From positions 1 to 27,704 of IMG/VR virus record IMGVR_UViG_3300030106_001270: a DNA stretch of 27,704 bases; one strand, given 5' to 3'. Under the pieces are notes generated by a model. The model did not search any database. It worked only from the letters and a program-made list of their open reading frames with translations, and was not told where the DNA came from. Of this stretch, positions 327 to 16,023 are shown one piece after another. Source of the DNA: a virus. The position numbers and the translations under genes were made by a program. Position 1 is the stretch's first letter. Every line of letters begins with the position of its first letter.

Positions 327-814
327 TGGCTGTTGGTAAACATGCAAAATTTATATCTGACCGATCGGGTTTAGAATTTCCATATAAAGAAATGAGAATA
401 GAATGGAATGGAGCAAGAGTTCATATATCAGAGTATGAAAAGAAACATCCGCAACTAGAACCAAAAAGATTTACAGCTGAACCACAAGGTTTGCGTAATG
501 CAAGACCTGACAGAATAGAACCTGCAGTTGCTAGATTACTTGGCTCTAATCCTTTTTCAATAACTAGTGGATCTACAACAATAACTGTTACAGAAATAAA
601 TCATGGACGATCTACAAATGATACGGTGAGATTTAGAAATGTAGAAGGTTCACCAGGAGGACTGGCTTCAACAGCTTATACAGCTGGATCTGGTTTTACA
701 ATTACAGTTACAACAACAGATAAGTATACGTTTACATTAGGGTCAACCCCTACTATAACAGAACAAGCAGGAGGCATGACAGTTACAGCAGGACCAGTAA
801 CTCTAGACGCATAA
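326..814 (+). CDS. Small virion structural protein with N-terminal EWNG motif and C-terminal beta domain
   Basis: This 162-residue protein starts at an ATG inside the upstream stop (TAATG), with GGAGG at 314-318 as ribosome site. The N-terminal half (residues 10-65: SDRSGLEFPYKEMRIEWNG, then KHPQLEPK) matches a short family common in marine phage structural clusters. From memory, relatives often begin that motif with CDR; here it is SDR, so a cysteine that might bind metal is absent. Residues 78-150 form a Thr/Val/Gly-rich beta domain (NHGRSTNDTVRF, then TVTTTDKYTFTLG) resembling an insert in the large protein at 14077-16023. It lies between two connector-like genes, which suggests a virion role. 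The exact function is unknown. Confidence 0.8.
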   Translation: MAVGKHAKFISDRSGLEFPYKEMRIEWNGARVHISEYEKKHPQLEPKRFTAEPQGLRNARPDRIEPAVARLLGSNPFSITSGSTTITVTEINHGRSTNDTVRFRNVEGSPGGLASTAYTAGSGFTITVTTTDKYTFTLGSTPTITEQAGGMTVTAGPVTLDA

Positions 815-1494
815 TGGCATATACTTTAACAAATATAACAGACGATATTAGAAATTATACAGAAGTAGATAGCGGAGTATTAACAACTGCAGTCGTAAAT
901 AGATTTGTACAGAATGCTGAGAATAGAATTTATAGAGAAATAGATTCTGACGATAACAGACACTATGCTACATCTAATCTAGCTATTGGAAACAGGTATG
1001 TAACTATTCCTTCTGATCTTAGAAATATTAGATATGTACAACTAAAAGATACAAATGTAACACCAAACACACAAACGTTCTTAGAGAAAAAAGACACTAG
1101 TTATATGGCGGCTTTTTATGATACGCCAAGCACAGCTTCTGGAATACCAAAGTATTATGCAAACTGGGATGCAAATTTTTGGGTGGTTGCACCTACACCA
1201 AACGCTACATATGAGATTACATTAGCGTATATGAAACAACCTGTGAGTCTTACAGATGCTACTAAAAGCGGATCTGGGACTTACCTATCTAACAAATATC
1301 AAGACTTACTTTTATACGCTGCGTTGGTCGAAGCATATGCATACTTGAAAGGTCCAGTGGATATGTTACAATACTACGAAGCGGCATATAAGAGAGCGGC
1401 AGCATCGTACTCTATCGAACAAGAAGGTAGAAGACGCAGAGACGAATATCAAGATGGTGTTATTCGTAACAGTATTAAATCACCATCACCATAA
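814..1494 (+). CDS. Phage adaptor / head-tail connector protein (SU10 adaptor or P22 gp4-like type)
   Basis: The product has 226 residues and its start overlaps the previous stop (TAATG). The N-terminus (LTNITDDIRNYTEVDSGVLT, then VNRFVQNAENRIYREID) is a helical segment typical of phage adaptor proteins that dock beneath the portal. The middle, from IPSDLRNIRYVQLKD to PTPNATYEITLAYMKQP, is a beta domain; the C-terminus (LLLYAALVEAYAYLKGP...YYEAAYKRAAASYSIEQEGRRRRDEYQDG) is helical and ends in a strongly charged tail. This N-helix/beta/C-helix plan fits adaptors of podoviruses. It follows the truncated connector gene and precedes tail genes, as expected. The broad family is fairly sure; whether it is the main adaptor or a second tail-tube ring protein is open. 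Confidence 0.8.
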   Translation: MAYTLTNITDDIRNYTEVDSGVLTTAVVNRFVQNAENRIYREIDSDDNRHYATSNLAIGNRYVTIPSDLRNIRYVQLKDTNVTPNTQTFLEKKDTSYMAAFYDTPSTASGIPKYYANWDANFWVVAPTPNATYEITLAYMKQPVSLTDATKSGSGTYLSNKYQDLLLYAALVEAYAYLKGPVDMLQYYEAAYKRAAASYSIEQEGRRRRDEYQDGVIRNSIKSPSP

Positions 1495-1975: not shown

Positions 1976-2434
1976 ATGGCTTTTGTACTTAACGATAGAG
2001 TCAAGCAGACGAGTACGTCTACTGGCACAGGAACAATAAACCTTTCAGCTACAGCTGAAACAGGTTTTGAAACTTTTGTTGCTGGTATTGGAACTACAAA
2101 TAGTACGTTCTACTGTATATCTCACGATGGAACTGCTGAATTTGAAGTCGGTATTGGAACTGTAACAGATGCATCACCTGATACACTTTCTAGAGATACC
2201 GTTATCTCCTCTTCAAACTCAGATAACAAAGTTGATTTTGGTGTTGGAACTAAAACTGTATTTTGTACTTATCCTGCAAAAAGAGCTCCGTCTGCAAGTA
2301 TGACAGCTACAACATATATTAATACACACGCAGCTACGATTTCAGATTCACAAACAATTGATTCAGGAGTATTAGCTGGTCCCGTAACTGTAACAGGTAC
2401 GGTAACAGTAACAGGTAATTTGGTAGTTATATAA
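1976..2434 (+). CDS. Fibre-proximal structural protein with C-terminal VTVTG repeats
   Basis: The 152-residue product starts at ATG 1976 behind AGAGGA. Residues 1-102 (MAFVLNDRVKQTSTSTGTGT, later FEVGIGTVTDASPDTLSRDT and TKTVFCTYPAKRAP) match a compact domain found in many phage tail and fibre proteins, where it is thought to form an attachment domain. The remaining 50 residues end in a short repeat, GPVTVTGTVTVTGNLVVI, which looks like the start of a beta-helical fibre shaft that stops early. Its stop overlaps the first cassette's ATG (TAATG at 2432-2436). It is plausibly the base or linker for the adhesin proteins that follow. Family resemblance is good; function is inferred. Confidence 0.8.
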   Translation: MAFVLNDRVKQTSTSTGTGTINLSATAETGFETFVAGIGTTNSTFYCISHDGTAEFEVGIGTVTDASPDTLSRDTVISSSNSDNKVDFGVGTKTVFCTYPAKRAPSASMTATTYINTHAATISDSQTIDSGVLAGPVTVTGTVTVTGNLVVI

Positions 2435-3240
2435 TGAGTCAAATAGAAGTAGATAAAATAATACCTCAATCTGGAACAGCACTACAAGTTGGTGAAAATG
2501 GTGACACAATTACAGTTCCAGCAGGAACTACTTTAAATTTAACAGACGGTACAGTTACATATCCAAATGGTTCTGTGCAAAACGTAGACCTTGCAAACTC
2601 TTCTATTACAATAAATGGATCATCTGTATCTTTAGGTGGATCTGTTACGATCGGTGAAACTAAACCTACAATAACTGGAGTAAGTCCAACAGTAATTGAA
2701 AACGCACAAGCTACTATTACAATTACAGGAACAAATTTTGTTAGAATACCTGTAGTTACAGCAATCAATAATAGTACCGGTCAAAGATTTTCTGCTGATG
2801 AAGTATCTTTTTCTAGTGCTACAAGTATCACAGCAAAATTTACGATTAGTGTAGATGGAACTTATTTATTATATTTAGAGAATCCAGATGGTAACGCGGT
2901 TCAAGTTGCTCAAGGGTCTGCTCAAGTTTTAACAGTTTCAGACGCTCCGGCGTGGACAACATCTGCTGGATCTTTAGGATCAAACGCTGCGGGAACTTTA
3001 GTTTCATATACAGTAGCAGCAACTAATGCTACTAGCTTTGCAGTACAATCAGGATCATTACCTGGAGGTGTATCTTTAAATACAAGCACAGGTGTGATAT
3101 CAGGTACAGAGTCAGGTTCTACGCAAGAAACAACGTACTCGTTTACTATTCGAGCTACGGATGCAGAAGGCCAGACAGCTGACAGAGCTTTTAGTATAAC
3201 AATAACACATGGAGTTAGTAACTCAGGACAGTTTAACTAG
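2434..3240 (+). CDS. TIG/IPT + Ig-like fibre protein, cassette copy 1
   Basis: The product has 268 residues. Residues 1-50 (MSQIEVDKIIPQSGTALQVG, then GTVTYPNGSV) form an N-terminal segment shared by many marine phage fibre proteins and probably an anchoring/trimerisation leader. Residues 55-76 (NSSITINGSSVSLGGSVTIG) are a linker almost identical to that in copy 2. Residues 77-168 (KPTITGVSPTVI...ITITGTNF...YLLYLENPDGNAV) are a classic TIG/IPT beta-sandwich. Residues 170-258 (FAVQSGSLPGGVSLNTSTGV, then TTYSFTIRATDAEGQTADR) are a putative-Ig (He_PIG) domain. It ends GQFN. No catalytic residues are seen. Such domains are extracellular binding or spacer units, so a role in receptor contact or fibre architecture is inferred. 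It starts inside the upstream stop. Confidence 0.87.
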   Translation: MSQIEVDKIIPQSGTALQVGENGDTITVPAGTTLNLTDGTVTYPNGSVQNVDLANSSITINGSSVSLGGSVTIGETKPTITGVSPTVIENAQATITITGTNFVRIPVVTAINNSTGQRFSADEVSFSSATSITAKFTISVDGTYLLYLENPDGNAVQVAQGSAQVLTVSDAPAWTTSAGSLGSNAAGTLVSYTVAATNATSFAVQSGSLPGGVSLNTSTGVISGTESGSTQETTYSFTIRATDAEGQTADRAFSITITHGVSNSGQFN

Positions 3241-3249
3241 GATAAAATT

Positions 3250-4587
3250 ATGGCATCAACTTATTTATACAGAACAAATGGAACACCTACTTTAGGAAAA
3301 AAGTACACATTTTCATTTTGGATGAAAAGAAGCGCAGTAGATGCTGATCATAGACTTGTTAATAATTATGTAGATGCAAACAATCTTGGACAAATTTATA
3401 TTGATGCAACTAATAATAAATTAAACATCATTGATAAAAGCGGTGGATCAACTCATTTAGATGTAACAGTTTCACATAAATTTAGAGATCCAACAGCTTT
3501 TCATCATATTGTTATAGCGGCAGATACAACACAAGGTAGCGCATCTGATAGAGTGAAAGTTTATATTAATGGTACTCAACAAACAGACTTTGCTTTAGGT
3601 GCAACTTATCCAAGTCAAGACGCTGTTTTAAAGATGAATGCAGCATCGGCTTCAGATCAATTCAGAATAGGTAGTCACAACGGAGGAGGTGATTATTTTG
3701 ATGGTAATCTAACTCATTTTCATTTTGTAGATGGTACAGCTTATGCAGCAAGCACTTTTGGTCAAACAAATGCTACATCAGGAATCTGGACTCCAAAAAC
3801 TTCACCAAGTGTTACTTATGGAAATAATGGTTACTTTTTAAAATTTGAAAATAGTGGTGCTATGGGCACAGACAGTTCAGGTAACACAAACACATTTACT
3901 GTGTCAGGAACGATGACACAAAATATAGATACACCTACAAATGTTTTTGCTACATTAAATAAATTATCAACGCATGGTAATAATACTTTATCGAATGGCA
4001 ATCTTAAAATTGCTTTTACGGCAAACACTTCTTACACAAATTCAATTGGAACTTATGGTATTAATAAAGGCCGTTGGTATGTTGAAGCAAAAGTTGCTGG
4101 TGCAACTACATATTATCCTTGTATTGGTTTTTGCAGTATGGCGAATACTTCAAGAAGATACTATGACCCTCTTTATACAGCAGCACACTTAGGGGCAGAT
4201 GAAGGAACAGGATATTTTGCTCATGGTAATATTCAAAAAGGTGGCTCAACAGATGGTGATTATGCAACATTTACCACTGGTGATATTATTTCAATGTATC
4301 TAGATTTAGAATCAGGAACAAAAACAATGAAATATTATAAGAATGATTCTTTAATAAGAAGCACAACTATAACTCCTGTTGACGGACAATTTTATACTTT
4401 TGGAGCGACAGGAACCTCTGGTTCTGATATTGTTGATTTTAATTTTGGTTCAGGATTTTTTGGAACTACAGCAGTTGCTTCAGGTAACGCAGATGCAAAT
4501 GGTTTCGGATCTTTTGAATATTCACCAACATTAAGTGGAGTAAATTATTATGCACTATGCACTAAAAACATAAAGGAGTTTGGATAA
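3250..4587 (+). CDS. LamG (concanavalin-like) + SPRY-like adhesin, cassette copy 1
   Basis: The product has 445 residues. Residues 18-165 form a LamG/concanavalin-like domain: KKYTFSFWMKRS opens it, FRDPTAFHHIVIAAD and VKVYINGTQQTDF are typical middle strands, and FRIGSHNGGGDYFDGNLTHF closes it. Residues about 270-400 resemble a SPRY/B30.2-like sandwich (KGRWYVEAKV, GDIISMYLDLESGTKTMKYY, IVDFNFGSGFF). The tail FGSFEYSPT...ALCTKN is shared by all three copies. Concanavalin-like domains often bind glycans, so binding of host surface polysaccharide is the best inference. There is no signal peptide or enzyme motif. AAAGGAG (4572-4578) near the 3' end serves the next gene, whose ATG overlaps this stop. 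Confidence 0.87.
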   Translation: MASTYLYRTNGTPTLGKKYTFSFWMKRSAVDADHRLVNNYVDANNLGQIYIDATNNKLNIIDKSGGSTHLDVTVSHKFRDPTAFHHIVIAADTTQGSASDRVKVYINGTQQTDFALGATYPSQDAVLKMNAASASDQFRIGSHNGGGDYFDGNLTHFHFVDGTAYAASTFGQTNATSGIWTPKTSPSVTYGNNGYFLKFENSGAMGTDSSGNTNTFTVSGTMTQNIDTPTNVFATLNKLSTHGNNTLSNGNLKIAFTANTSYTNSIGTYGINKGRWYVEAKVAGATTYYPCIGFCSMANTSRRYYDPLYTAAHLGADEGTGYFAHGNIQKGGSTDGDYATFTTGDIISMYLDLESGTKTMKYYKNDSLIRSTTITPVDGQFYTFGATGTSGSDIVDFNFGSGFFGTTAVASGNADANGFGSFEYSPTLSGVNYYALCTKNIKEFG

Positions 4588-5642
4588 TGGCCTATATATC
4601 TTTTCAACCACACGATTATTTTAATACTAAACTTTATACAGGTAATGCTGGAACAAATGCTATCACAGGTGTTGGCTTTCAACCTGATTGGCTTTGGGTA
4701 AAAGCTAGAAATAGAAATGATAATCATAGAGTAATTGATGTTTTAAGAGGCACTAATGCTTTTAAGATGAATGAATCAAATGCACAAAATGATGTTTCAG
4801 GAGATGGTTTTACGAGTTTAGATAGTGATGGTTTTACATTAAATGGTTCAGGCGGTGGTGGTGAGTTTAACGCAAATAGTGGAACATTTGCAGCATGGAA
4901 CTGGAAAGCTGGTGGAGCTGGCTCAGCAAATAATGATGGTGCTACAGCATCAACTGTTTCAGCAAGTCCTACTTCTGGATTTTCAGTTGTTACACATACA
5001 GGTACAGGTGGAGCAACAACTATAGGACATGGATTAAATGCTACGCCTAGAGTTATCTTTACTAAAATGACAAGTGGTTCAAATAATACATTTGTACAAC
5101 AACCTATTTTAGGTGGTTCTTGGACTAGCAATAATTATATATCAATAACTACAGATAGCGGAGCTGCTTCGGCTTCAAGTTCTACTATAATTAATGCTGT
5201 GAGTAACAGCACCATATCTTTTGCTGGTTCTGATGATTGGGTTAATGGTAACGGCTCTTCATATGTTCATTATGTTTTTGCGGAAAAAAATGGATTTTCT
5301 AAATTTGGACAGTACATTGGTAATGGAAACGGTAATGGTCCAACTATATACGCAGGATTTAAACCAGCTTGGTTTTTAGTTAAAAAAACAAATGTTTCTG
5401 GAGAATATTGGGGCATGTATGATAATAAAAGAAATACATTTAACGAGGTTGATGATGCGCTAATGGCAAACAGAACTGATCAAGAAGCAGACATGGGAGA
5501 TGGAGTTGATTTTCTTGCTACTGGTATAAAAGTTAGAGATACAGGTGGAGAGCTAAATGCTAGTGGTGCTACATATTTTTATATGATGTTTGCAGAAGAA
5601 CCTACAGTAGCATCAAATGGAGACCCAGCGACGGCAAGATAA
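4587..5642 (+). CDS. GFxPxxxxxK-repeat fibre protein (DUF7483-like), cassette copy 1
   Basis: The 351-residue product starts in TAATG overlap with the LamG gene. It has three internal repeats of form [Y/H]xGN/T...G[F/L]xPxxxxxK: residues 17-40 (YTGNAGTNAITGVGFQPDW), 137-160 (HTGTGGATTIGHGLNATP) and 243-267 (YIGNGNGNGP, then GFKPAWFLVK). Between repeats 1 and 2 lie VIDVLRG, DGFTL and AAWNWKAGG, marks of a family common in marine phages that I recall as DUF7483 but cannot verify here. The end (YFYMMFAEEPTVASNGDPAT) is conserved in copy 2. The protein is beta-rich without catalytic motifs. It is probably a distal fibre or receptor-binding chain working with the LamG protein. Confidence 0.85.
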   Translation: MAYISFQPHDYFNTKLYTGNAGTNAITGVGFQPDWLWVKARNRNDNHRVIDVLRGTNAFKMNESNAQNDVSGDGFTSLDSDGFTLNGSGGGGEFNANSGTFAAWNWKAGGAGSANNDGATASTVSASPTSGFSVVTHTGTGGATTIGHGLNATPRVIFTKMTSGSNNTFVQQPILGGSWTSNNYISITTDSGAASASSSTIINAVSNSTISFAGSDDWVNGNGSSYVHYVFAEKNGFSKFGQYIGNGNGNGPTIYAGFKPAWFLVKKTNVSGEYWGMYDNKRNTFNEVDDALMANRTDQEADMGDGVDFLATGIKVRDTGGELNASGATYFYMMFAEEPTVASNGDPATAR

Positions 5643-5644
5643 TT

Positions 5645-6499
5645 ATGAGTGAAGTAAAAGTAAATAAAGTAACACCAAGATCAGGCACAACAGTACAAGT
5701 TGGTGAGGCCGGAGATACTGTTAATTTATCTACGGCTACTGTATCTTTACCAAACTCAACTGTAACAAGTGATCAATTAGTTGGATCTGTTGCAAATGCA
5801 AAACTTGCAAACTCATCAATTACAATTAACGGTTCTGCAGTTTCTCTTGGAGGATCTGTAACTGTAGGTGAAACTAAACCAACAGTTAGTGGAATTACAC
5901 CATCAACAATAGCACCTAATAGCTCAACAACTCTTACAATAGCAGGAGCTAATTTTGCTAGTGTTCCTTTAGTGCAAGCACAAAACACATCTACAGGGGC
6001 GGTAACTTCTGCAACTGCTGTGGCCTTTTCATCATCAAGTTCTATTACAGCTACTTTTACTTTAGCTTTAGGAACATATAAATTTTACATAGAGAATCCA
6101 GATGGAAATGCTGTGCTAACTTCACAAACTGTGCAAGCATCAACTGGTCCATCTTTTACGACTAATGCAGGGTCTTTAGGAACTTTTGCAGCAGGAAGCA
6201 CCATATCAGGATTGAATGTTGTAGCTTCGTCTGATAGTAATGTAACTATTACTGAGGTAACTTCACCGTTAACTCTAACAGGAAATACAGATACGCCAGC
6301 TTCAACAATGAATTTAGGTTTAACTGGAACACCTGCAACAACAGCTACTTATACAATAGCTGGCACGGCACCATCGCCATCATCTGAGACTACATATAGT
6401 TTTACTTTGAGAGCGACTGATGCTGAATCACAAACGACAGACAGAGCTTTTAGTATTACAATTTCTGTAGGTCTAAAAAATGGAGGACAATTCTGTTAA
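5645..6499 (+). CDS. TIG/IPT + Ig-like fibre protein, cassette copy 2
   Basis: This 284-residue paralogue of the copy 1 protein begins MSEVKVNKVTPRSGTTVQVG. The linker NSSITINGSAVSLGGSVTVG (residues 56-75) is nearly identical to copy 1 at protein level but uses many different codons. The TIG/IPT domain spans 79-168 (KPTVSGITPSTI...LTIAGANF...YKFYIENPDGNAV). The C-terminal Ig-like domain (169-275) is clearly different: it lacks the FAVQSGSLPGG motif of copies 1 and 3 and has a Thr-rich stretch (TEVTSPLTLTGNTDTPAST) before rejoining at TTYSFTLRATDAESQTTDR. It ends GGQFC. The next gene starts one base after this stop, with GGAGGA at 6482-6487. Confidence 0.87.
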   Translation: MSEVKVNKVTPRSGTTVQVGEAGDTVNLSTATVSLPNSTVTSDQLVGSVANAKLANSSITINGSAVSLGGSVTVGETKPTVSGITPSTIAPNSSTTLTIAGANFASVPLVQAQNTSTGAVTSATAVAFSSSSSITATFTLALGTYKFYIENPDGNAVLTSQTVQASTGPSFTTNAGSLGTFAAGSTISGLNVVASSDSNVTITEVTSPLTLTGNTDTPASTMNLGLTGTPATTATYTIAGTAPSPSSETTYSFTLRATDAESQTTDRAFSITISVGLKNGGQFC

Positions 6500-7813
6500 A
6501 TGGCTAGTACAAAAATAACACGAACATCATCATCAAGCACAGAAAAGAAAATTACTATTTCTATGTGGGTAAGATTAAACACTCCAGGGGAAAGATCATG
6601 TGTAGGAAATACTAATGATGGTTCAAACTGGGCTATGTTTTATTTTAATGGTGCACAGAAATTACAGTTTGCTTCTTACATAGGTGGATCTTATGTTGTA
6701 AGGTACACAACAAATAGAATATTTAGGGATGTTGGAGCTTGGTATCACTGCGTTGCAACAGCAGATGTAAGTTTAGCCTCTCCTGAAGTAAAAATTTATG
6801 TTAATGGTGAGGAACAAACAGATCTACAATATAATGTTACACCATCTCAAAATGCAGATATAGGTTGGTTTAACGCTTGGAATATGGAACTCGGTGTGCA
6901 ATTTGGTTCATCACATTATCTAGATGGCGCTTTAGCAGATGTATATTACATACAAGGATACATTCATCCAGCTTCAACCTTTGGTCAAACAGATGCAGTA
7001 ACTGGTCAATGGAAACCTATAACTTCTCCATCAATAAATTATGGTGGTAATGGTGGTAATTCTTTTCATTTAAAATTTGAAAATTCAGCGAATCTAGATT
7101 TAGATAGTGGAACTAATAACCTTTCGTTTACAACATCAGGAAACTTACTTCAATCACAAGACAATCCTAGTAACGTTTTTTGTACTTGGAACGATCGTAA
7201 AAAAATGACAGTAACTTTATCAAACGGCGCCACTACAACATCAGGAAATGGTGATCATGGTGTTTGGGGGACAATAGGAGACAACCAAGGTAAATGGTAT
7301 TGGGAAACACAACAAAACGCAGGTAATACAATGATGGGTATTGCTAGTGAGGATGTAACACAAGAACAAGATCGAAGTTCAAATGCTGCTGGTGGTGTTT
7401 ATGGTCTTCAAGATGGAACAACTTATGCTTATTATAGAAACAACGGATCAAGCGGTCAATCTTCAGGTTTCGCTCAAATTACAAACAGTGCTGTTCTTTG
7501 TCATGCTTTAGATTTAGATAATGGAAAATATTATCTTGGCGTAAATGGAAATTTTACAAATTTATCGGGAACAGCTAGTAATATATCAGGTGGAACCAAC
7601 CCTACTTTTTCAGGATTAGACACTGATAAATTTTGGTTTCCTTTTACAGAGTGTAGAGGAAATGGTGCTGGATGTGATGCTAATTTTGGTAATGGATTTC
7701 TTGGCACTAGTGCTATATCATCTGAAGGAAGTAACGCATCAGGTATAGGTAAATTTGAATATGACGTACCAGCAGGCTTTACTGCATGGTCAACTAAAGG
7801 ATTAAACGAATAA
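6500..7813 (+). CDS. LamG (concanavalin-like) + SPRY-like adhesin, cassette copy 2
   Basis: The 437-residue paralogue begins MASTKITRTSSSSTEKKITI. The LamG-like domain occupies about residues 15-165 (ISMWVRL, FRDVGAWYHCVATAD, VKIYVNGEEQTDL, HYLDGALADVYYIQGYIHPA). The linker carries NSFHLKFENSANLDLD and NPSNVFCTWN, matching copies 1 and 3. The second sandwich (about 258-395) has QGKWYWETQQN, LCHALDLDNGKYYLGVNGNF and CDANFGNGFLG. The tail GKFEYDVPAGFTAWSTKGLN is close to copy 3. Its last codons lie in a 24-base exact repeat shared with copy 3 (7796-7819 and 11393-11416). Inferred role: glycan or receptor binding at the tail. Confidence 0.87.
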   Translation: MASTKITRTSSSSTEKKITISMWVRLNTPGERSCVGNTNDGSNWAMFYFNGAQKLQFASYIGGSYVVRYTTNRIFRDVGAWYHCVATADVSLASPEVKIYVNGEEQTDLQYNVTPSQNADIGWFNAWNMELGVQFGSSHYLDGALADVYYIQGYIHPASTFGQTDAVTGQWKPITSPSINYGGNGGNSFHLKFENSANLDLDSGTNNLSFTTSGNLLQSQDNPSNVFCTWNDRKKMTVTLSNGATTTSGNGDHGVWGTIGDNQGKWYWETQQNAGNTMMGIASEDVTQEQDRSSNAAGGVYGLQDGTTYAYYRNNGSSGQSSGFAQITNSAVLCHALDLDNGKYYLGVNGNFTNLSGTASNISGGTNPTFSGLDTDKFWFPFTECRGNGAGCDANFGNGFLGTSAISSEGSNASGIGKFEYDVPAGFTAWSTKGLNE

Positions 7814-7819
7814 TGGCAT
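7796..7819 (+). repeat. 24-base exact direct repeat, copy A (LamG/GFxP gene junction, cassette 2)
   Basis: These 24 bases are identical to 11393-11416. They cover the codons for KGLNE, the TAATG overlap and the first codons of the next gene. Flanking bases differ (T versus G before; T versus A after). It sits at the equivalent junction of cassettes 2 and 3 and is absent from cassette 1, whose junction instead carries AAAGGAGTTTGGATAATGG. Confidence 0.9.
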
Positions 7820-8877
7820 TTACAACTATAAATAAAAGCTCAGATCATTTTAAAGCAATTAAATATACAGGGACTGGATCATCAAACGCTATAACAGGCG
7901 TTGGACACCAACCTGATTTTTTATGGATTAAAACAGCAAATGGTGCAGAACATCATATTTTAATTGATGCAGTTAGAGGACTAGATAAACAAATGTATTC
8001 AAGTCACTCTTCATCACAAGATACAAATGCTCAATCAGTAACAGCTGTTGGTGCCGATGGATTTACTGTAGGCACAAATGCACAAACTAACGCTAACAGT
8101 AGTATTTTTATTGCTCAAACATGGAAAGCTGGTGGTGGAGCAGGAAGCTCTAATACAGATGGAACAATAAACACAATATCTACTTCTGTTAATACAACAG
8201 CAGGAATCAGTATATCTACTTACACAGGTAACGCTACACAAGGAGCAACAGTGGGACATGGTTTAGGTGTTGCACCAAAAGCGATTATAATTAAATCTTA
8301 TACAAACTCTGAACAATGGGTAGTTGGTCACAACGAAATGAATTCAACAAATGCTTGGGATTATTATATGCATCTTCAATCAAATGCCGCAAGAGGACAA
8401 AATAATAATAGGTTTGGTAATGTTTATCCAACAAACCAAGTATTCACATTAGGTAGTGAAGATCAAGTTAACAGTTCAAGCAAGTCTTATGTGGCTTACT
8501 GTTTTGCAGAGAAAAAAGGATTCTCTAAGTTTGGAACATATAAAGGTAACGGAAGTTCAGATGGTTTATTTATTTATACAGGTTTTAAACCAGCATGGTT
8601 AATGACTAAGTATGCTCATAGTGGTGGAACTGGAAGTTGGTTAATGTATAACACAGGACTTAATCCAACAAACAAAGATCAATTTTTTCATCACGAAGCA
8701 AACACAACTAATACTTGGGTTGATAATACTGACAGAGTAGATTTTTATTCTAATGGTTTTAAATTTGTAGACAGCACAAATTCAGATAGTAACACGAGTG
8801 GTGGGTATTATGTTTATATGGCATTTGCAGAGGCACCATTTGTAGGAACTAATAACATTCCGGCAACGGCTAGATAA
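7813..8877 (+). CDS. GFxPxxxxxK-repeat fibre protein (DUF7483-like), cassette copy 2
   Basis: The 354-residue product starts in TAATG overlap. It begins MAFTTINKSSDHFKAIKYTG; the first repeat runs to GVGHQPDFLWIK, the second is YTGNATQGATVGHGLGVAPK, and the third is YKGNGSSDGLFIYTGFKPAW. The segments HILIDAVRG, DGFTVG, AQTWKAGGGAG, YVAYCFAEKKGFSKFG and YYVYMAFAEAP align with copies 1 and 3. The C-terminus FVGTNNIPATAR resembles both the copy 1 end (DPATAR) and the copy 3 end (FVGTNNTPSLAF), as an intermediate would. Likely a receptor-binding or structural fibre chain. No enzymatic motif is visible. Confidence 0.85.
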   Translation: MAFTTINKSSDHFKAIKYTGTGSSNAITGVGHQPDFLWIKTANGAEHHILIDAVRGLDKQMYSSHSSSQDTNAQSVTAVGADGFTVGTNAQTNANSSIFIAQTWKAGGGAGSSNTDGTINTISTSVNTTAGISISTYTGNATQGATVGHGLGVAPKAIIIKSYTNSEQWVVGHNEMNSTNAWDYYMHLQSNAARGQNNNRFGNVYPTNQVFTLGSEDQVNSSSKSYVAYCFAEKKGFSKFGTYKGNGSSDGLFIYTGFKPAWLMTKYAHSGGTGSWLMYNTGLNPTNKDQFFHHEANTTNTWVDNTDRVDFYSNGFKFVDSTNSDSNTSGGYYVYMAFAEAPFVGTNNIPATAR

Positions 8878-8879
8878 TT

Positions 8880-10058
8880 ATGAGTAGTATATTAAAAGTA
8901 GATACGATACAGGACCAAAGCGGTAATCTTATCATCAGTAAAGATTCTGGTGGTGGAGGTTTTCTTAGTCCTTATGCATCTTCATCTGCTCCAATAGTAT
9001 ACACAGTTACAGTTGCAACTAAAACTACAGCACATCCTTATAGTGGTGTTGGTAGTTCTAATGCATATTTCATAAATGGTATTGAGTCACCGGTCATAGA
9101 ATTAAAAGGTAATGATACAGCAAAGCCATACTATTATAAATTTGATCAATCAGATGCTTCTAATGGAAATGGTGGTGGACACCCTTTAAGATTTTACAAC
9201 GACGCTGCTAAGACTACACAATTTACAACAGGTGTGACTACATCCGGTACACCAGGTCAAGCAGGTGCACACACAACAATTGCTGTAGATAAAGATACAC
9301 CTAGCATTTTATATTACCAATGTTCCTCACATGCACACATGGGTAACCACACAATACATAATTCACCAACAGTTAACACAGGTGTATTTTTAAAATTACC
9401 TACAGCTGATGGTACAAATGGTCAAGCGATAACGACTAACGGATCAGGGACATTAGCTTTTACAACTGTAGAAGAAACTAAACCAGTGATCTCGTCTATC
9501 AGTCCTACTGTAATTACAAATGATGCGACAAACGTTGTAATCACTGGAACAGGATTTAAAGATAGTTCAACGCCACCTTTTGTAGATGCAATTAATGCAT
9601 CAACTGGTGCGATCGTAACTGCAAACTCTGTAACATTTACAAGTGCAACTTCGGTAACTGCAAATTTTACTTTACCGGTTGATGGAACATATTTTTTAAG
9701 ATTAGAGAATAACGATGGTCTAGCATGTAGATCAGCATCAGCTTTACTTACTGTTTCTGATGCACCAGCATGGACAACTGCCGCAGGAAATTTAGGAACT
9801 GTTGCCGCTTTAGGAACTATAAACTTTACAGTTGCCGCAACAGATGCTACAAGTTTCGCTGTACAGTCCGGATCACTTCCAGGTGGTGCAAGTTTAAATA
9901 CATCAACTGGTGCTATCACTGGAACAGAAACTGGATCAACTGCAACAACCACGTATACGTTTACAATACGTGCAACTGATGCTCAGGCACAAACAGCGGA
10001 TCGTCAGTTTAATATTATAATATCACACGGAGCTTCAGGAGGAGCACAGTTTACATAA
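8880..10058 (+). CDS. Fibre protein: cupredoxin-like domain + TIG/IPT + Ig-like, cassette copy 3
   Basis: The product has 392 residues. Residues 1-25 are a leader (MSSILKVDTIQDQSGNLIIS). Residues about 38-165 are a beta domain absent from copies 1 and 2. It contains His101 (GGGHPLRFYND) and, after PGQAGAHTTIAVDKDTPSI, the loop YYQCSSHAHMGN with Cys148, His151 and Met154. This His...Cys-x2-His-x2-Met pattern is the type-1 (blue) copper ligand set, with the same loop spacing as amicyanin. Residues 201-292 are a TIG/IPT domain (KPVISSISPTVI, VVITGTGF) and 293-382 an Ig-like domain very close to copy 1 (FAVQSGSLPGGASLNTSTGA). Copper binding is inferred from residues, not shown. It might stabilise the fibre, or the site might be an inactive relic. 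Confidence 0.87.
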   Translation: MSSILKVDTIQDQSGNLIISKDSGGGGFLSPYASSSAPIVYTVTVATKTTAHPYSGVGSSNAYFINGIESPVIELKGNDTAKPYYYKFDQSDASNGNGGGHPLRFYNDAAKTTQFTTGVTTSGTPGQAGAHTTIAVDKDTPSILYYQCSSHAHMGNHTIHNSPTVNTGVFLKLPTADGTNGQAITTNGSGTLAFTTVEETKPVISSISPTVITNDATNVVITGTGFKDSSTPPFVDAINASTGAIVTANSVTFTSATSVTANFTLPVDGTYFLRLENNDGLACRSASALLTVSDAPAWTTAAGNLGTVAALGTINFTVAATDATSFAVQSGSLPGGASLNTSTGAITGTETGSTATTTYTFTIRATDAQAQTADRQFNIIISHGASGGAQFT

Positions 10059-11410
10059 TGGCTAGTACTTATTTATCAAAAACTTTAGCAGGCACAAGAA
10101 CAAATGGTAAAAAATGGACTTGGAGTGCTTGGGTTAAAAGAAATGCAACTGGATCAATACAACCACTATTTTATGCAGATGATGGTAGTGCAAATTATTA
10201 CACAACAGTAAGATTTCATGACACAGATTCAATTGTATTTAGAAATAAACATAGTAGTGATCAAGGTTATTTAATTACAACACGTCTTTTTAGAGATACT
10301 GGAGCTTGGTACCATATACAGGCAGTGTATGACAGTGATAATTCTACGTCAGGTGATAGGATGATTTTGTATGTCAATGGTGAAAGAATAACAGCATATG
10401 ATAATGAAGCATATCCAGGATCAAGTGCAGGTTCAACTATCAATGATGGTTATCAACATAGAATAGGTAGAGGTAATCAAGTAGATGGCTCTAGTTATTT
10501 TGATGGTTGTATGAGTCATGTGCATTTTGTTGATGGTCAAGCATACGCACCAACAGTATTCGGAGAAACAGATGCAACAACTGGTATTTGGAAAATTAAT
10601 ACAAATCCAACTGTTACTTATGGTATAAATGGTTTCTTTATTTTAAAAAATAGTAATGCAGTTACAGATCAATCTCCAAACTCCAACGCTTTTGCAGTTA
10701 GTGGTGGAACTTTGTTAACTACTCAAGATAATCCTAGTAACAACTTTCCTACTATTAATAGAATGTTATCTGCAACACCTCCAACATCAAAAGGTTGTTT
10801 AACAATTACAAAAACAAACTCAGGCTACAAACCAGGTTTATCTACTTTTGGTGCTCACTCTGGTAAATATTATGCTGAGTTTAAACTAGAAACTGCATCA
10901 GGTTATACAAACTTTGGTGTTGTAAATGCTTTTAAAAAGAAAGCTTTAGGAACTGGTTCATCTTTAGATTATATTGGTGATGGTAATGATGGAGTTGCTT
11001 ATCAACCAGGTTCATCATCACTTTATTATAATGGTTCATCACAAGGTAGTTATGGTTCTGCATCACAAGGAGATATTATCGGAATAGCTTTGGATATAGA
11101 TAACGGATATGTTTATTGGTCTAAGAATGGAACATTTTTAAATTCAGGAGTTCCAACCTCAGGTGGTTCAGGCACAGGAGGATTTGCTTTATCAAACATA
11201 GCTGACACACAATTTGGTAATTATTATATATTTGGAGTTTCAGTTGCTGGAACTTCTGGAACTAGAACAGTAGCAATTAATTATGGTCAAGGGTTTTTTG
11301 GAACTACTGCCGTAGCTTCTGCTGGAAATAACGCAAGTGGTCATGGTGTATTTGAATATGATGTACCAACTGGCTATACTGCACTTTGTACGAAAGGATT
11401 AAACGAATAA
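10058..11410 (+). CDS. LamG (concanavalin-like) + SPRY-like adhesin, cassette copy 3
   Basis: The 450-residue product follows AGGAGGAG (10037-10044) with a TAATG overlap. The LamG-like domain (residues about 15-170) has KKWTWSAWVKRNA, FRDTGAWYHIQAVYD, MILYVNGERITAYD and SYFDGCMSHVHFVDGQAYAP. The linker shows NPSNNFPTINRM, equivalent to NPSNVF in copy 2. The second sandwich (about 268-415) has SGKYYAEFKLETASGYTNFG, GDIIGIALDIDNGYVYWSKN and VAINYGQGFFGT, a good SPRY-like pattern. The end GVFEYDVPTGYTALCTKGLN is closest to copy 2. Inferred role: surface glycan recognition by the tail. Confidence 0.87.
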   Translation: MASTYLSKTLAGTRTNGKKWTWSAWVKRNATGSIQPLFYADDGSANYYTTVRFHDTDSIVFRNKHSSDQGYLITTRLFRDTGAWYHIQAVYDSDNSTSGDRMILYVNGERITAYDNEAYPGSSAGSTINDGYQHRIGRGNQVDGSSYFDGCMSHVHFVDGQAYAPTVFGETDATTGIWKINTNPTVTYGINGFFILKNSNAVTDQSPNSNAFAVSGGTLLTTQDNPSNNFPTINRMLSATPPTSKGCLTITKTNSGYKPGLSTFGAHSGKYYAEFKLETASGYTNFGVVNAFKKKALGTGSSLDYIGDGNDGVAYQPGSSSLYYNGSSQGSYGSASQGDIIGIALDIDNGYVYWSKNGTFLNSGVPTSGGSGTGGFALSNIADTQFGNYYIFGVSVAGTSGTRTVAINYGQGFFGTTAVASAGNNASGHGVFEYDVPTGYTALCTKGLNE

Positions 11411-11416
11411 TGGCAT
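11393..11416 (+). repeat. 24-base exact direct repeat, copy B (LamG/GFxP gene junction, cassette 3)
   Basis: Identical to 7796-7819. It spans the end of the LamG gene, the TAATG overlap and the start of the third cassette gene. It could be a site where homologous recombination exchanges or expands cassettes. Confidence 0.9.
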
Positions 11417-12441
11417 ACTCAATAAACCCAAAAAGTTATTTTAATACTAAACTTTACACAGGAAACGAAAGTGCTGGTCACTCTATTACAGGTGTAGGCT
11501 TTCAACCAGATTTTATTTGGTTTAAGAATAGAGGAACTACTGATAGTCATGCTGTGTATGATGCAGTTAGAGGAGTAACAAAAGAATGGAATCCTGATAC
11601 TGGTGATGGAGAAACAACTCAGTCTACAGGTTTAACATCATTTGATTCTGATGGATTTACAACTGGGGCAAGAACATTGCTTAACAGTAATAACCAACCT
11701 TTAGCTTCATGGCATTGGAAAATGAACGGAGCTGGTTCTTCTAACAGTGATGGTAGTATAACATCGACAGTATCTGTTAACTCTACTGCTAAAATGAGTA
11801 TAGTAAGATTTACCGGAACAGGATCTTCTGCAACAGTAGGACACGGACTTGGAGTAAAACCTGATTACATCATAGTAAAATGTATGGACTCAGGTGAAAA
11901 TGGAATGGTATGGTCTAATGCTATGGGAGCAAATCAATTTTTAAGATTAAGCACATCTGCTTCTCTTGGCACTGATACGGGTGTGTGGGATAACACAGCT
12001 CCAACATCAACTGTTTTTTATGTAAAAGATGAAAATGTAACTAATAAATCAGGTGCTGTTCATATTGCGTACTGTTTTTCTAATGTTGATGGTTTTTGTA
12101 GAGCAGGAGAATATCAAGGTAATGGAAACACAGATGGTACTTTTATTTACACAGGTTTTAGACCATCTTTCATTTTAACAAAATTAGCTAATACAGGAAG
12201 TGAAGATTGGAAGTTACATGATGATAGACGACCAGGATTTAACTTAACAAATGATTTTGTGCAACCAAGTAATAACAATGCTGAACTAGACACAAGTAAC
12301 CAAATGGATATTTTATCACATGGTTTTAAATGGAGAAGTACAAACACAGCGACAAACTCTAGTGGTAATACAATAATCTTTTTAGCATTTGCTAGAGAAG
12401 CATTCGTAGGGACTAATAATACACCAAGTCTAGCCTTTTAG
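11410..12441 (+). CDS. GFxPxxxxxK-repeat fibre protein (DUF7483-like), cassette copy 3
   Basis: I place the start at ATG 11410, inside the upstream stop, giving 343 residues. An in-frame ATG at 11386 would add eight residues inside the LamG coding end, but both sister genes start at the TAATG overlap. The N-terminus MAYSINPKSYFNTKLYTGNE is very like copy 1 (YFNTKLYTGNA). Repeats are YTGNESAGHSITGVGFQPDF, FTGTGSSATVGHGLGVKPDY and YQGNGNTDGTFIYTGFRPSF. It retains VYDAVRG, SFDSDGFTTG, ASWHWKMNGAG and IIFLAFAREAFVGTNNTP. The last residues (SLAF) differ from the ATAR end of copies 1 and 2. Function is inferred as the third chain of the adhesin set. Confidence 0.85.
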   Translation: MAYSINPKSYFNTKLYTGNESAGHSITGVGFQPDFIWFKNRGTTDSHAVYDAVRGVTKEWNPDTGDGETTQSTGLTSFDSDGFTTGARTLLNSNNQPLASWHWKMNGAGSSNSDGSITSTVSVNSTAKMSIVRFTGTGSSATVGHGLGVKPDYIIVKCMDSGENGMVWSNAMGANQFLRLSTSASLGTDTGVWDNTAPTSTVFYVKDENVTNKSGAVHIAYCFSNVDGFCRAGEYQGNGNTDGTFIYTGFRPSFILTKLANTGSEDWKLHDDRRPGFNLTNDFVQPSNNNAELDTSNQMDILSHGFKWRSTNTATNSSGNTIIFLAFAREAFVGTNNTPSLAF

Positions 12442-12453
12442 GAGTAACCTCGC

Positions 12454-13092
12454 ATGTATTTCGGAACTACTCCTTTTTCCGCAGCAGCATTCTCAGATGT
12501 CGGATTTAATCCAAACGCATTTGTCAATGTCCTTGGATCAAGAATTAATGTAAACATTGGTAACTCTACAATAGCAGGAGATGCTAATTTCTCAGTCACA
12601 GGTAATCGAGTAAATATATCTACTGGTAATGTAACTATTATTGGTAAGGCTAGAGAAGTCTTAGTAGGTAACGGTTTAGAATTAGGTATAGGTAATGCTC
12701 AAGCTTCTATACCTAAAGATGTACCAGTTACAGGAAAAGGTTTTGAAATAGCTAAAGGAACAGTTACTACGAAAGCTGGTGCCATACCAACTATAGCATC
12801 AAATAGATTTAATATTGGTACAGGCAATGTTACAATTATTGGTAAATGTAATTTATCCGTTACTGGTAATGGGTTTGAAGTAGCTCTTGGTAATGCAACA
12901 GCCAAAGCAAATGCAACTGCAATTGTATCTGGTAAGAGATTTAATATAGGCACAAGTGATGTAACTGTATTAGCGAAAGCTAAAGCGCTACCTTCTGGTG
13001 AGGGATTTGAATTAGGTACATCTGATATAACATTAAGAATGTGGGAAGCAGTACCTACAAACGCAACACAAACTTGGACGGCGATACCATAA
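12454..13092 (+). CDS. 22-residue-repeat (beta-solenoid-like) tail protein
   Basis: The 212-residue product begins MYFGTTPFSAAAFSDVGFNP, a leader shared with the next gene. Residues 26-201 are eight tandem 22-residue repeats with no gaps. Two flavours occur: [G/N]xR[F/V/I]N[I/V]xxGNVTIIGKA (repeats 1, 2, 5, 7) and GxG[F/L]E[L/I/V]xxG (repeats 3, 4, 6, 8). Examples are VTGNRVNISTGNVTIIGKA and IASNRFNIGTGNVTIIGK. The end is TQTWTAIP. Such short glycine-turn repeats suggest a beta-solenoid or similar stacked fibre. There is no enzymatic motif. Position after the adhesin cassettes suggests a fibre shaft or spike. SD is GGAG at 12441-12444. Confidence 0.83.
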   Translation: MYFGTTPFSAAAFSDVGFNPNAFVNVLGSRINVNIGNSTIAGDANFSVTGNRVNISTGNVTIIGKAREVLVGNGLELGIGNAQASIPKDVPVTGKGFEIAKGTVTTKAGAIPTIASNRFNIGTGNVTIIGKCNLSVTGNGFEVALGNATAKANATAIVSGKRFNIGTSDVTVLAKAKALPSGEGFELGTSDITLRMWEAVPTNATQTWTAIP

Positions 13093-13346: not shown

Positions 13347-14066
13347 ATGGCATCAAGCACGTCAAGTGATTTAAAATTAGAACTAATTACAACGGGTGAA
13401 AAATCAGGAACCTGGGGTACTATTACAAATACAAATCTACAAATATTAGAACAAGCAGCTAGTGGTTATATAGCTATTGACGTAGCAGCTAGCGATGTAG
13501 CTTTGGCATTATCAAACCATGCCGTATCAAACGGTAAAAATTTATACTTTAAACTTACTGGCACTCTAGCAGCTAATAGAACAGTAACTATGCCTGACTC
13601 TGCGGAAAGAGTTTTTATTGTCGAAGATGCTACAGCTAGATCTTCTAACAACTATACACTAACAGTTAAGACCGTATCAGGAACCGGGATAGCTCTACCA
13701 ATCGGATCTAAATCTTTAGTGTACTCAGATGGTACTAATGTAAATAAAGGTTTAATTAACAAAGGGTACTACACAGTACCAGGAGCATACACTGCAGTAG
13801 ATGGAGATCAGTTATTAGTTGATACATCTTCAGGCGGTATTAATAGTTCAGTAACCATAACCCTACCAGCATCACCTGCTATCGGTAATGAAGTTACATT
13901 TATTGATAGTGGAAACAATGTTAATTCTAACAATCTTACAATTGCAAGAAATGGCTCAAACATATTAGGGGCAGCTTCTAATTTAGTTGTTAGTGTAAAT
14001 GGCTCAGCTTTTACATTAGTATATGTAAATGCAACAAGAGGCTGGGCATACAAAGATAAAATATAG
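13347..14066 (+). CDS. Tail protein with GEKSGTWG N-terminal motif
   Basis: The 239-residue product follows AGGAGA (13338-13343), which overlaps the upstream stop. The N-terminus LKLELITTGEKSGTWGTITN then LQILEQAASGYIAID matches a very common marine and cyanophage tail-protein domain (the pattern GExxGTWGxxTNxN). Later segments, TMPDSAERVFIVEDAT and YTLTVKTVSGTGIALPIGSK, then VYSDGTNV, are also typical. The C-terminal half (DQLLVDTSSGG...VTITLPASPAIGNEVTFIDS...GWAYKD) resembles the end unit of phage fibres. A virion location is well supported by family resemblance; the exact structural role is not known. Confidence 0.84.
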   Translation: MASSTSSDLKLELITTGEKSGTWGTITNTNLQILEQAASGYIAIDVAASDVALALSNHAVSNGKNLYFKLTGTLAANRTVTMPDSAERVFIVEDATARSSNNYTLTVKTVSGTGIALPIGSKSLVYSDGTNVNKGLINKGYYTVPGAYTAVDGDQLLVDTSSGGINSSVTITLPASPAIGNEVTFIDSGNNVNSNNLTIARNGSNILGAASNLVVSVNGSAFTLVYVNATRGWAYKDKI

Positions 14067-14076
14067 GAGCTAGCAG

Positions 14077-16023
14077 ATGGCTCTTGTTGAGTACAAATTT
14101 CTCCCCGGAATAGACAAACAATCTTCTGACTCTGGTGCAGAAAACCGTTGGATTGATTCTGATAATGTTAGATTTAGATATGGCCTACCAGAAAAAGTTG
14201 GTGGATGGTCATCACTTGTTACAGATACTATAGTAGGTGTATCAAGAGCAATGCACGCTTTTACAGATTTAACAGGTAATAGATATGTTGCTATAGGTAC
14301 AGATAAATTTTTATTAATATACTTTGAAGGTAAACTTCACGATATTACACCATTAAAAGCAACATTAACATCTGCAACAATAGCAACAACAAATGGATCA
14401 CCTACATGTACAATTACAAAGTCAGCTCACAATTTAGCTGTGGGTGATATTGTACAATTAGCTAGTGTTACTTTACCGGGTGGTACAGGTTTTAGTAATT
14501 CTGATTTTGAAGATAAAAACTTTCAAGTTATAACGGTTCCAACGTCAAGCACGTTTACAATCACACAATCTAGTAATGCATCTGGCACAGTATCAACTGG
14601 CGGTAGTTTAAGTATAAAACCTTACGAGCCTGTAGGGCCAAGAGCACAAACATATGGATATGGTTGGGGTGTTGCCGGTTGGGGTGATGGTAACTGGGGT
14701 GAAGCTGCAACAGCTTCTGAAGTATCTCTAGAACCTGGTTTATGGTCATTAGATAATTTTGGAGAAGTTTTAATTGCAACGATTGCAAATGGTAAAACAT
14801 TTACATGGAATGGTGGTGCTGCTTCAGCATTAAACAACAGAGCTTCTACTACTACATCTAATTTTGAAACTAATAATAACCCAACAGCAAGTAGGATTAC
14901 ACTTGTATCACCAACAACAAGACACTTAATACACCTTGCAACAGAAACAACAATTGGAAATACAGCAACACAAGATGATATGTTTATGAGATTCTCAGAT
15001 CAAGAAGCAATTAATACTTACGCACCTACAGCAATAAACACTGCAGGCACACAAAGATTACAAGATGGTACAAAAATTATGGGTGCGTTAAAAGCAAAAG
15101 AAACAATTCTAATATTTACTGACAACGCTTTGTATACAATGAAATTTGTTGGTTCACCATTTACATTTGGTTTTGAACAAGTAGGAACAAACTGTGGTTT
15201 AATAGGTAAGAATGCATGTGTTGAAGTTGATGGTGTCGCTTATTGGATGTCTCCAAAAGGTTTCTTTGCGTATGATGGTACTGTTAAATCATTACCATGC
15301 ACAGTTGAAGATCATGTGTTTGAAAACATTGACACTACCAAAGGTCAACAAATTAACGCTGGATTAAATAATTTATTTACAGAAGTTATTTGGTGGTATC
15401 CAAGTTCAGGTTCTGACTATAACGACAAATATGTTGTGCTTAATTTTGGTGAATCCTCAATGATAAAAATGATTGGTGGTGTCTGGTATACAGGCACAGA
15501 ACCAAGAACTAGTTGGGTAGATGCAACTATATATCCAAAACCTTTTGCAACTAAATACAATGTATCTTCAAGTGGTACGTTTCCTGTAATTGTAGGTGAG
15601 TCTGGATTAGGACAAACAACATTGTTTGAACATGAAGTAGGTACAGATCAAGTAAATCCAAATGGATCAACAACAGCTGTTACATCATTTATTAAATCAT
15701 ACGATATTGATATAGAACAAAGATCTAGAAACCCTATAGCACCAGCAGTCGCTGGAGAACTGTTTATGAAGATGAGAAGATTTGTACCTGATTTTAAATC
15801 GTTGGCAGGTAATGCTAAAGTAACATTAGGTATAAAAAGATACCCACAAGAAACTCAAACTAATACAGCATTAAGTCCTTTTACAATCAACTCTACTACA
15901 ATTAAAAAAGATACTAGAGCAAGAGGACGATATATAAATATTAAAATAGAAAATGACACAGCTAGTGAGTCTTGGAGATTTGGCACTCTTAAATTAGATG
16001 TACAACCAGATGGTAGAAGATAA
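14077..16023 (+). CDS. Large tail hub/stabilisation protein, P22 gp10-like
   Basis: The 648-residue product follows AGGAG (14066-14070). It begins EYKFLPGIDKQSSDSGAENR with WIDSDNVRFRYGLPEKVGGW, the mark of the phage stabilisation/tail hub family related to P22 gp10. A propeller-like pattern of VAIGTDKFLLIY, LIATIANGKTFTW, ILIFTDNALYTMKF and VDGVAYWMSPKGFFAYDG follows. Residues about 100-180 form an inserted Thr/Ser-rich beta domain (AHNLAVGDIVQLASVTLPGG, TVPTSSTFTITQ) like that in the protein at 326-814. The C-terminus (ARGRYINIKIENDTASESWR, then FGTLKLDVQPDGRR) is a characteristic end for the group. In P22 this protein closes the portal channel after packaging. The same role is likely here. 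Confidence 0.83.
   Translation: MALVEYKFLPGIDKQSSDSGAENRWIDSDNVRFRYGLPEKVGGWSSLVTDTIVGVSRAMHAFTDLTGNRYVAIGTDKFLLIYFEGKLHDITPLKATLTSATIATTNGSPTCTITKSAHNLAVGDIVQLASVTLPGGTGFSNSDFEDKNFQVITVPTSSTFTITQSSNASGTVSTGGSLSIKPYEPVGPRAQTYGYGWGVAGWGDGNWGEAATASEVSLEPGLWSLDNFGEVLIATIANGKTFTWNGGAASALNNRASTTTSNFETNNNPTASRITLVSPTTRHLIHLATETTIGNTATQDDMFMRFSDQEAINTYAPTAINTAGTQRLQDGTKIMGALKAKETILIFTDNALYTMKFVGSPFTFGFEQVGTNCGLIGKNACVEVDGVAYWMSPKGFFAYDGTVKSLPCTVEDHVFENIDTTKGQQINAGLNNLFTEVIWWYPSSGSDYNDKYVVLNFGESSMIKMIGGVWYTGTEPRTSWVDATIYPKPFATKYNVSSSGTFPVIVGESGLGQTTLFEHEVGTDQVNPNGSTTAVTSFIKSYDIDIEQRSRNPIAPAVAGELFMKMRRFVPDFKSLAGNAKVTLGIKRYPQETQTNTALSPFTINSTTIKKDTRARGRYINIKIENDTASESWRFGTLKLDVQPDGRR

Follow-up and report, generated by a model that had tools for sequence, protein, structure and literature searches.

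The DNA analysed here (the window) is a 27,704-nucleotide stretch of IMG/VR virus record IMGVR_UViG_3300030106_001270, making up most of the 28,340-base record, and between positions 2434 and 12441 it carries a row of nine predicted tail-adhesin genes. These fall into three trios with the same order: A (TIG plus Ig-like), B (LamG plus SPRY-like) and C (DUF7483). Comparison with related loci suggests a plug-and-socket mechanism for altering the surfaces to which the virus can stick, in which a tail with three docking positions would take exchangeable receptor-binding heads; we give this reading a probability of about 0.6. The apparent constant element is an ordered set of three anchors, the short N-termini of the A proteins, each belonging to one place in the row (slot) and each also carrying unrelated adhesins. 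The compared loci and contigs bear L-numbers as labels (L006 is HTVC200P, MH598801; L339 is HTVC023P). The relatives are metagenomic contigs, partly overlapping and not independent, and the close relatives of the window phage are all metagenomic.

The initial annotation, made from the letters alone, had described three sets of three genes with products of 268/445/351, 284/437/354 and 392/450/343 residues, and this gene map holds. Proteins at equivalent positions are homologous far above chance, with BLASTP E values from 2e-26 to 7e-78 (A1-A2, 7e-78; A1-A3, 3e-63; A2-A3, 2e-26; B pairs, 1e-50 to 6e-63; C pairs, 3e-58 to 2e-74), and among the nine window proteins there were no A-B, A-C or B-C matches. 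The copies are old, with 34 to 60% amino acid identity by BLASTP and no direct repeat of ≥50 bp at ≥88% in the window. We rejected a recent origin by tandem duplication, as well as gene conversion among the slots, because neither the window nor 22 other arrays had any self-match of that size and identity. The junctions are also alike: both C-to-A junctions have an identical AGATAATTATGAGT and every B-to-C junction is an ATAATGG overlap, while the A-to-B junction varies (9-nucleotide gap, adjacent or overlapping).

The domain content read from the letters agrees with Pfam and fold matching. The A proteins are He_PIG/TIG and the B proteins Laminin_G_3, with SPRY above cut-off in B3 only and sub-threshold in B1. 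The AlphaFold2 model of B1 (predicted local distance difference test score, pLDDT, 87.6) matches solved SPRY domains (Foldseek E ~1e-10). The "GFxPxxxxxK repeat" protein noted in each set proved to be DUF7483 (PF24299, E 1e-98 to 1e-107), and in PHROGs the C proteins fall with tail fibre and virion structural proteins. Comparing the AlphaFold2 model of C1 with the PDB gave no match at E ≤ 0.001, with TM-scores ≤0.32 among the matches listed, so we claim no fold for C; in BFVD it matched mostly phage DUF7483-type proteins. Weak C-profile sequence matches to CanA and kappa-carrageenase (E 0.004 to 0.035) were not taken as evidence.

The A proteins begin with slot-specific motifs: T1, MSQIEVDKIIPQSGT; T2, MSEVKVNKISPRSGT; and T3, MSSILKVDTIQDQ.GN. 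Across 84 proteins with all kinds of cargo, residues 1 to 18 have a mean identity of 84.6% within an anchor type versus 44.6% between types; for the Ig part of A the corresponding values are 64.2% and 53.5%, and the slot signal is strongest at the A N-terminus. Among loci that contain n152, the left-border gene of the slot region, the count gave no anchor-like N-terminus beyond that region. With the patterns used, three recognisable anchors occur in 14/16 loci with both borders, and in the window lineage their order is nearly always T1-T2-T3. Relatives of the window phage usually have an array of three adhesin units bordered by the same genes on either side; a threefold array, which the initial annotation had called unusual, is thus normal for the lineage.

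What the anchors carry is not fixed. Where a relative has two trios, the anchor of the missing trio is still present, in order, with other cargo. Adhesins matching Gly_rich_2 (Pfam) stand on T1 in L172, L185 and L234 and on T2 in L171, and the anchored cargo of L182 and L219 is Gly-rich by reading. C1q/TNF-like cargo, with weak Pfam support, occurs in L190 and L192, and in L137 and L208 the anchor carries a 138-residue protein with one further gene behind it. In more distant relatives (L204, L242, L239, L231 and 023Pt_psg01), the T1, T3-like and T2-like anchors bear adhesins that are Gly-rich in all three places or S74-like in all three.

Other slot regions also depart from the trio. In L268 a slot open reading frame (ORF) at 7666-9153 has two DUF7483 matches (C-C), as in L066. 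Downstream of n152, L216 and L212 have, in place of three large adhesins, a row of small genes whose N-termini resemble the anchors; several of these genes end in a C1q-like GAYRIGS-type motif. In HTVC023P, gp59-gp62 (L339 3242-8938) form an unbroken series of four Gly-rich adhesin genes; their N-termini are T1-, T3- and T2-like, the T2-like form occurring twice.

Slot memory was measured in nine complete triple arrays, window included, with 2000 permutations; among the IMG/VR relatives, three-trio arrays are found in L108, L117, L120, L164, L251, L267, L268 and the overlapping pair L176 + L030. Across phages, the excess identity of same-slot proteins was +6.6 points for A (0/2000 permutations), +0.9 for B (19/2000) and -0.2 for C (1528/2000). 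By this measure slot memory is clear in A, slight in B and absent in C. Trees built for each gene position gave 5 anchor-label changes for A, 8 for B and 14 for C versus shuffled means of 25.5, 24.6 and 21.2. A clusters by slot. The C1, C2 and C3 of the window do not form one group and join different sequences in a tree of 188.

The B and C genes diverge although flanking proteins are 94 to 100% identical. L170 has four flanking proteins 100% identical to those of the window, with B at 49% and C at ≤50%, and its DNA match to the window breaks at 3960, the LamG-SPRY border of B1. L009, whose d648 (a conserved right-flank protein) is 99% identical, has C at 45 to 49%, and its match breaks inside C3 between 11520 and 12091. 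L107 and L108 come from different metagenomes. They match at 99.8% over the 4.5 kb on one side and at 99.3% over the 3.9 kb on the other side of a B1 SPRY region in which they differ; on this evidence the difference is a replaced SPRY domain. Breaks recur near B residues 4-9 and 237 and near C residues 204-236 and 296-336, and the stretch from B 402-422 to C 41 is a conserved island bounded by such breaks; the variability profile has its conserved blocks in broad agreement with them. In this alternation of variable stretches and conserved motifs, with its recurring breaks, the locus works like a gp38-type modular adhesin, whose segments are exchanged by recombination. As for a diversity-generating retroelement, the window contains no near-identical repeat and the family hits obtained, for a record of only 28 kb, included no reverse transcriptase.

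These results bear first on plain tandem duplication, in which one trio was copied and diverged in place to leave three vertically inherited paralogues. A row of three homologous trios, alike in gene order and junctions, and A trees that cluster by slot, fit it. However, slot memory across phages is lacking in C and nearly so in B, the window C genes join different sequences, the anchors persist with non-homologous cargo, and sharp swaps lie within near-identical flanks. This explanation is already disfavoured, and we consider it unlikely. Since C has no slot memory and C1, C2 and C3 do not group together, the trios are drawn from a large pool common to other phages. The initial annotation is supported for the repeated adhesin trio, its tail role and its podovirus context; it is not supported for tandem triplication as the key event.

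A second alternative takes the anchors as pairing codes rather than docking codes, each T type marking one chain of a single heterotrimeric fibre, as in C1q. That there are usually three anchored genes per locus, that the anchors are mutually homologous, and that one relative has runs of C1q-like genes would all suit such a fibre. Against it, the chains encoded by a single genome can differ in length and in the fold of their cargo (Gly-rich beside Ig trios in L234 and L171), the number of anchored genes is four in HTVC023P and at least six in L216, and phage fibres are usually homotrimers; we regard it as quite unlikely. Expression of one adhesin set at a time, by inversion or regulation and with no joint display, would be in keeping with the inverted C gene between B genes in HTVC200P. 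In the window, by contrast, the nine genes all point the same way and overlap or nearly abut at their junctions, which would suit a single operon, and no recombinase was identified among annotated neighbours, though no search was aimed at recombinases; single expression is very unlikely. That B and C hypervariability is an assembly or sampling artefact is least probable of all: the close relatives are metagenomic and chimeras occur, but many contigs, taken from different samples, show the pattern, their breaks fall on the same domain borders, and single-trio hypervariability was reported for Skadi-1 from read mapping (PMC10504331).

The window phage is a presumed SAR11 podovirus related to the HTVC023P type. 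The closest matches of d648 are 023Pt_psg01 (64% identity) and HTVC027P and HTVC023P (48%), virion gene synteny and homology place the window with HTVC023P-type phages, and the n107-n152 gene order is found in 023Pt_psg01 too. Because d648 is closest to Pelagibacter phages, HTVC023P-type phages are Podoviridae of Pelagibacter (PMC9599517), and the gene upstream of the adhesin locus has a Pfam SU10_adaptor match, a SAR11 host is likely; the same facts bear out the podovirus context and tail role. The text of PMC9599517, on HTVC023P-type genomes, does not mention tail fibres, host recognition or receptors.

In the three-socket reading, each A protein would use its T1, T2 or T3 N-terminus to dock the unit at a tail site specific to it and would form a TIG/Ig stalk, and B (LamG plus SPRY) and C (DUF7483) would be exchangeable receptor-binding heads lying further out. 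A proximal A with B and C together is supported by gene fusions: A is the C-terminal part of an annotated tail fibre in most isolates (HTVC201P, HTVC011P, HTVC204P and others; a separate gene in HTVC031P), and B and C are fused in S-B68 and in phrog_19943. The anchors would be retained by descent, while heads, and single domains inside heads, would be swapped by recombination with other phages at the recurring borders, altering receptor specificity and preserving assembly. Location on the virion, docking, receptor binding, joint display and any consequence for host range are all inferred from sequence. More tentatively, and at somewhat less than even odds, the three anchors might form a socket code: not interchangeable with one another, they would let a single small marine phage show up to three different adhesin heads at once, with LamG/SPRY/DUF7483, Gly-rich, C1q-like and S74-type heads plugging into the same sockets, for combinatorial host recognition in SAR11 phages.

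Several points weigh against the three-socket reading. The anchor patterns were set by eye before counting, and HTVC027P has no recognisable anchor. The 2/16 exceptions, L117 and L267, do carry three A-B-C trios, but the N-termini there are of other kinds. No T3-type anchor is present in L268, and anchor order deviates in Gly-rich relatives. Nor is three universal, given the four anchored genes of HTVC023P and the at least six read in L216, of which the pattern caught three. The C tree retains some clustering by anchor type (14 changes versus 21.2 shuffled), near-copies adding to such clustering, and the slot memory of A could be partly a linkage effect because A heads each unit. Since the contigs are metagenomic, any one pair that looks swapped could owe this to a chimera. 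Finally, Pfam finds no T4gp10-like domain in A1-A3 or the tested neighbours, where remote homology is possible.

Among known systems, the three-slot locus is best read as working like the multi-receptor-binding-protein systems of Klebsiella phages, in which an anchor is combined with short conserved N-terminal peptides (K1-5, G7C, Klebsiella KP32, Menlow and PhiK64-1; PMC6872550). Shared features are several predicted receptor-binding proteins in one tail locus, here three adhesin units, and a short conserved N-terminus ahead of a divergent, exchangeable specificity part. Unlike those systems, the window has no T4gp10-like branch domain by Pfam, each of its specificity units is three separate proteins with lectin-like domains and no depolymerase found, and three anchor types stand in fixed order in its lineage. 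The variation within B and C is best compared with modular variation in the gp38 adhesins of the T4 superfamily, where, by the account of Trojet et al. 2011 given in PMC9229481, conserved segments separate hypervariable ones and shuffling alters specificity. The window has the same alternation. In contrast, its B and C are LamG/SPRY and DUF7483 rather than polyglycine folds, Gly-rich cargo occupies these sockets only in its relatives, and exchange in its lineage crosses protein borders.

One A-B-C trio is common among cultured pelagiphages (HTVC011P, HTVC201P, HTVC204P, Skadi, Greip), and the order Ig/TIG, LamG+SPRY, DUF7483 is the same in window and isolates. Hypervariability of a single trio is already published: the Skadi-1 hypervariable region, 13,646-15,713 (PMC10504331), spans its C and B genes. 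The single-trio phages differ in having one copy, an A mostly fused to an annotated tail fibre, and no typed anchors or socket array. HTVC103P (MN698242) and HTVC104P (MN698243) likewise have three adhesin units in a row, two trios with another, apparently Gly-rich, adhesin gene between them, and differ in their MAYIG-type anchor N-termini. Marine phage metaviromic islands also have host-recognition genes that vary between near-identical phages, and the parts of PMC3909814 consulted describe no cassette, anchor or domain-swap anatomy. In the literature searched, whose coverage is incomplete, we found no description of the anchored three-slot arrangement.

The relatives infect SAR11, among the most abundant bacteria of the sea, for which few phage receptors are known. 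If the socket is conserved and heads are swapped in nature, pairs matched in all else, such as L107/L108, would single out one domain as the candidate determinant of specificity, and a role is suggested for DUF7483, a Pfam-listed domain of unknown function. The idea is testable because related loci exist in cultured phages: HTVC023P on HTCC1062, and HTVC103P and HTVC104P on HTCC7211.

Table 1. Features of the three-slot adhesin locus and its flanks (window coordinates)
Feature	Position	Strand	Evidence
SU10-type head-tail adaptor homologue, conserved upstream flank	814..1494	+	Pfam SU10_adaptor 4e-23; 100% identical in L170
n152, 152-residue protein, left border of three-slot region	1976..2434	+	directly precedes first anchor across relatives
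A1: T1 anchor (~residues 1-18, 2434-2487), TIG-like, He_PIG Ig	2434..3240	+	He_PIG 8e-14; T1 motif MSQIEVDKIIPQSGT
B1: LamG + SPRY-like, variable SPRY block ~3958-4450	3250..4587	+	Laminin_G_3 1e-11; phrog_27411; model SPRY fold; L170 break 3960
C1: DUF7483	4587..5642	+	PF24299 1.3e-98; model pLDDT 87.9
A2: T2 anchor (~5645-5698), TIG/Ig	5645..6499	+	TIG 1.3e-4; T2 motif MSEVKVNKVTPRSGT
B2: LamG + SPRY-like	6500..7813	+	Laminin_G_3 2.5e-15; phrog_27411
C2: DUF7483	7813..8877	+	PF24299 4.8e-100
A3: T3 anchor (~8880-8963), extra N-terminal domain, TIG/Ig	8880..10058	+	He_PIG 9e-10; phrog_30742 tail fiber; T3 motif MSSILKVDTIQDQSGN
B3: LamG + SPRY	10058..11410	+	Laminin_G_3 2e-14; SPRY 6.5e-6
C3: DUF7483, variable block ~11520-12091	11410..12441	+	PF24299 2e-107; L009 alignment breaks 11520, resumes 12091
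d212, 212-residue repetitive protein, right border of slot region	12454..13092	+	conserved downstream neighbour in relatives
d648, 648-residue virion structural protein, conserved right flank, used for placement	14077..16023	+	phrog_3287; 99% identical in L009

The start of C3 was taken as the ATG at 11410; the mechanical ORF start is a TTG at 11386. The d212 protein has an internal repeat of NVTIIGK-like units, and relatives match it one to three times over. In HTVC200P a B gene and the B-C pair that follows it flank gp036 (L006 5792-6832), a DUF7483 gene that lies on the other strand and may be an inverted adhesin gene. Iron-dependent oxygenase and ferrochelatase-like genes, none of which was noticed adjoining the slots in the window, lie near the adhesin slots of HTVC023P-type phages (L008 22343-24740; L339 10039-14989).

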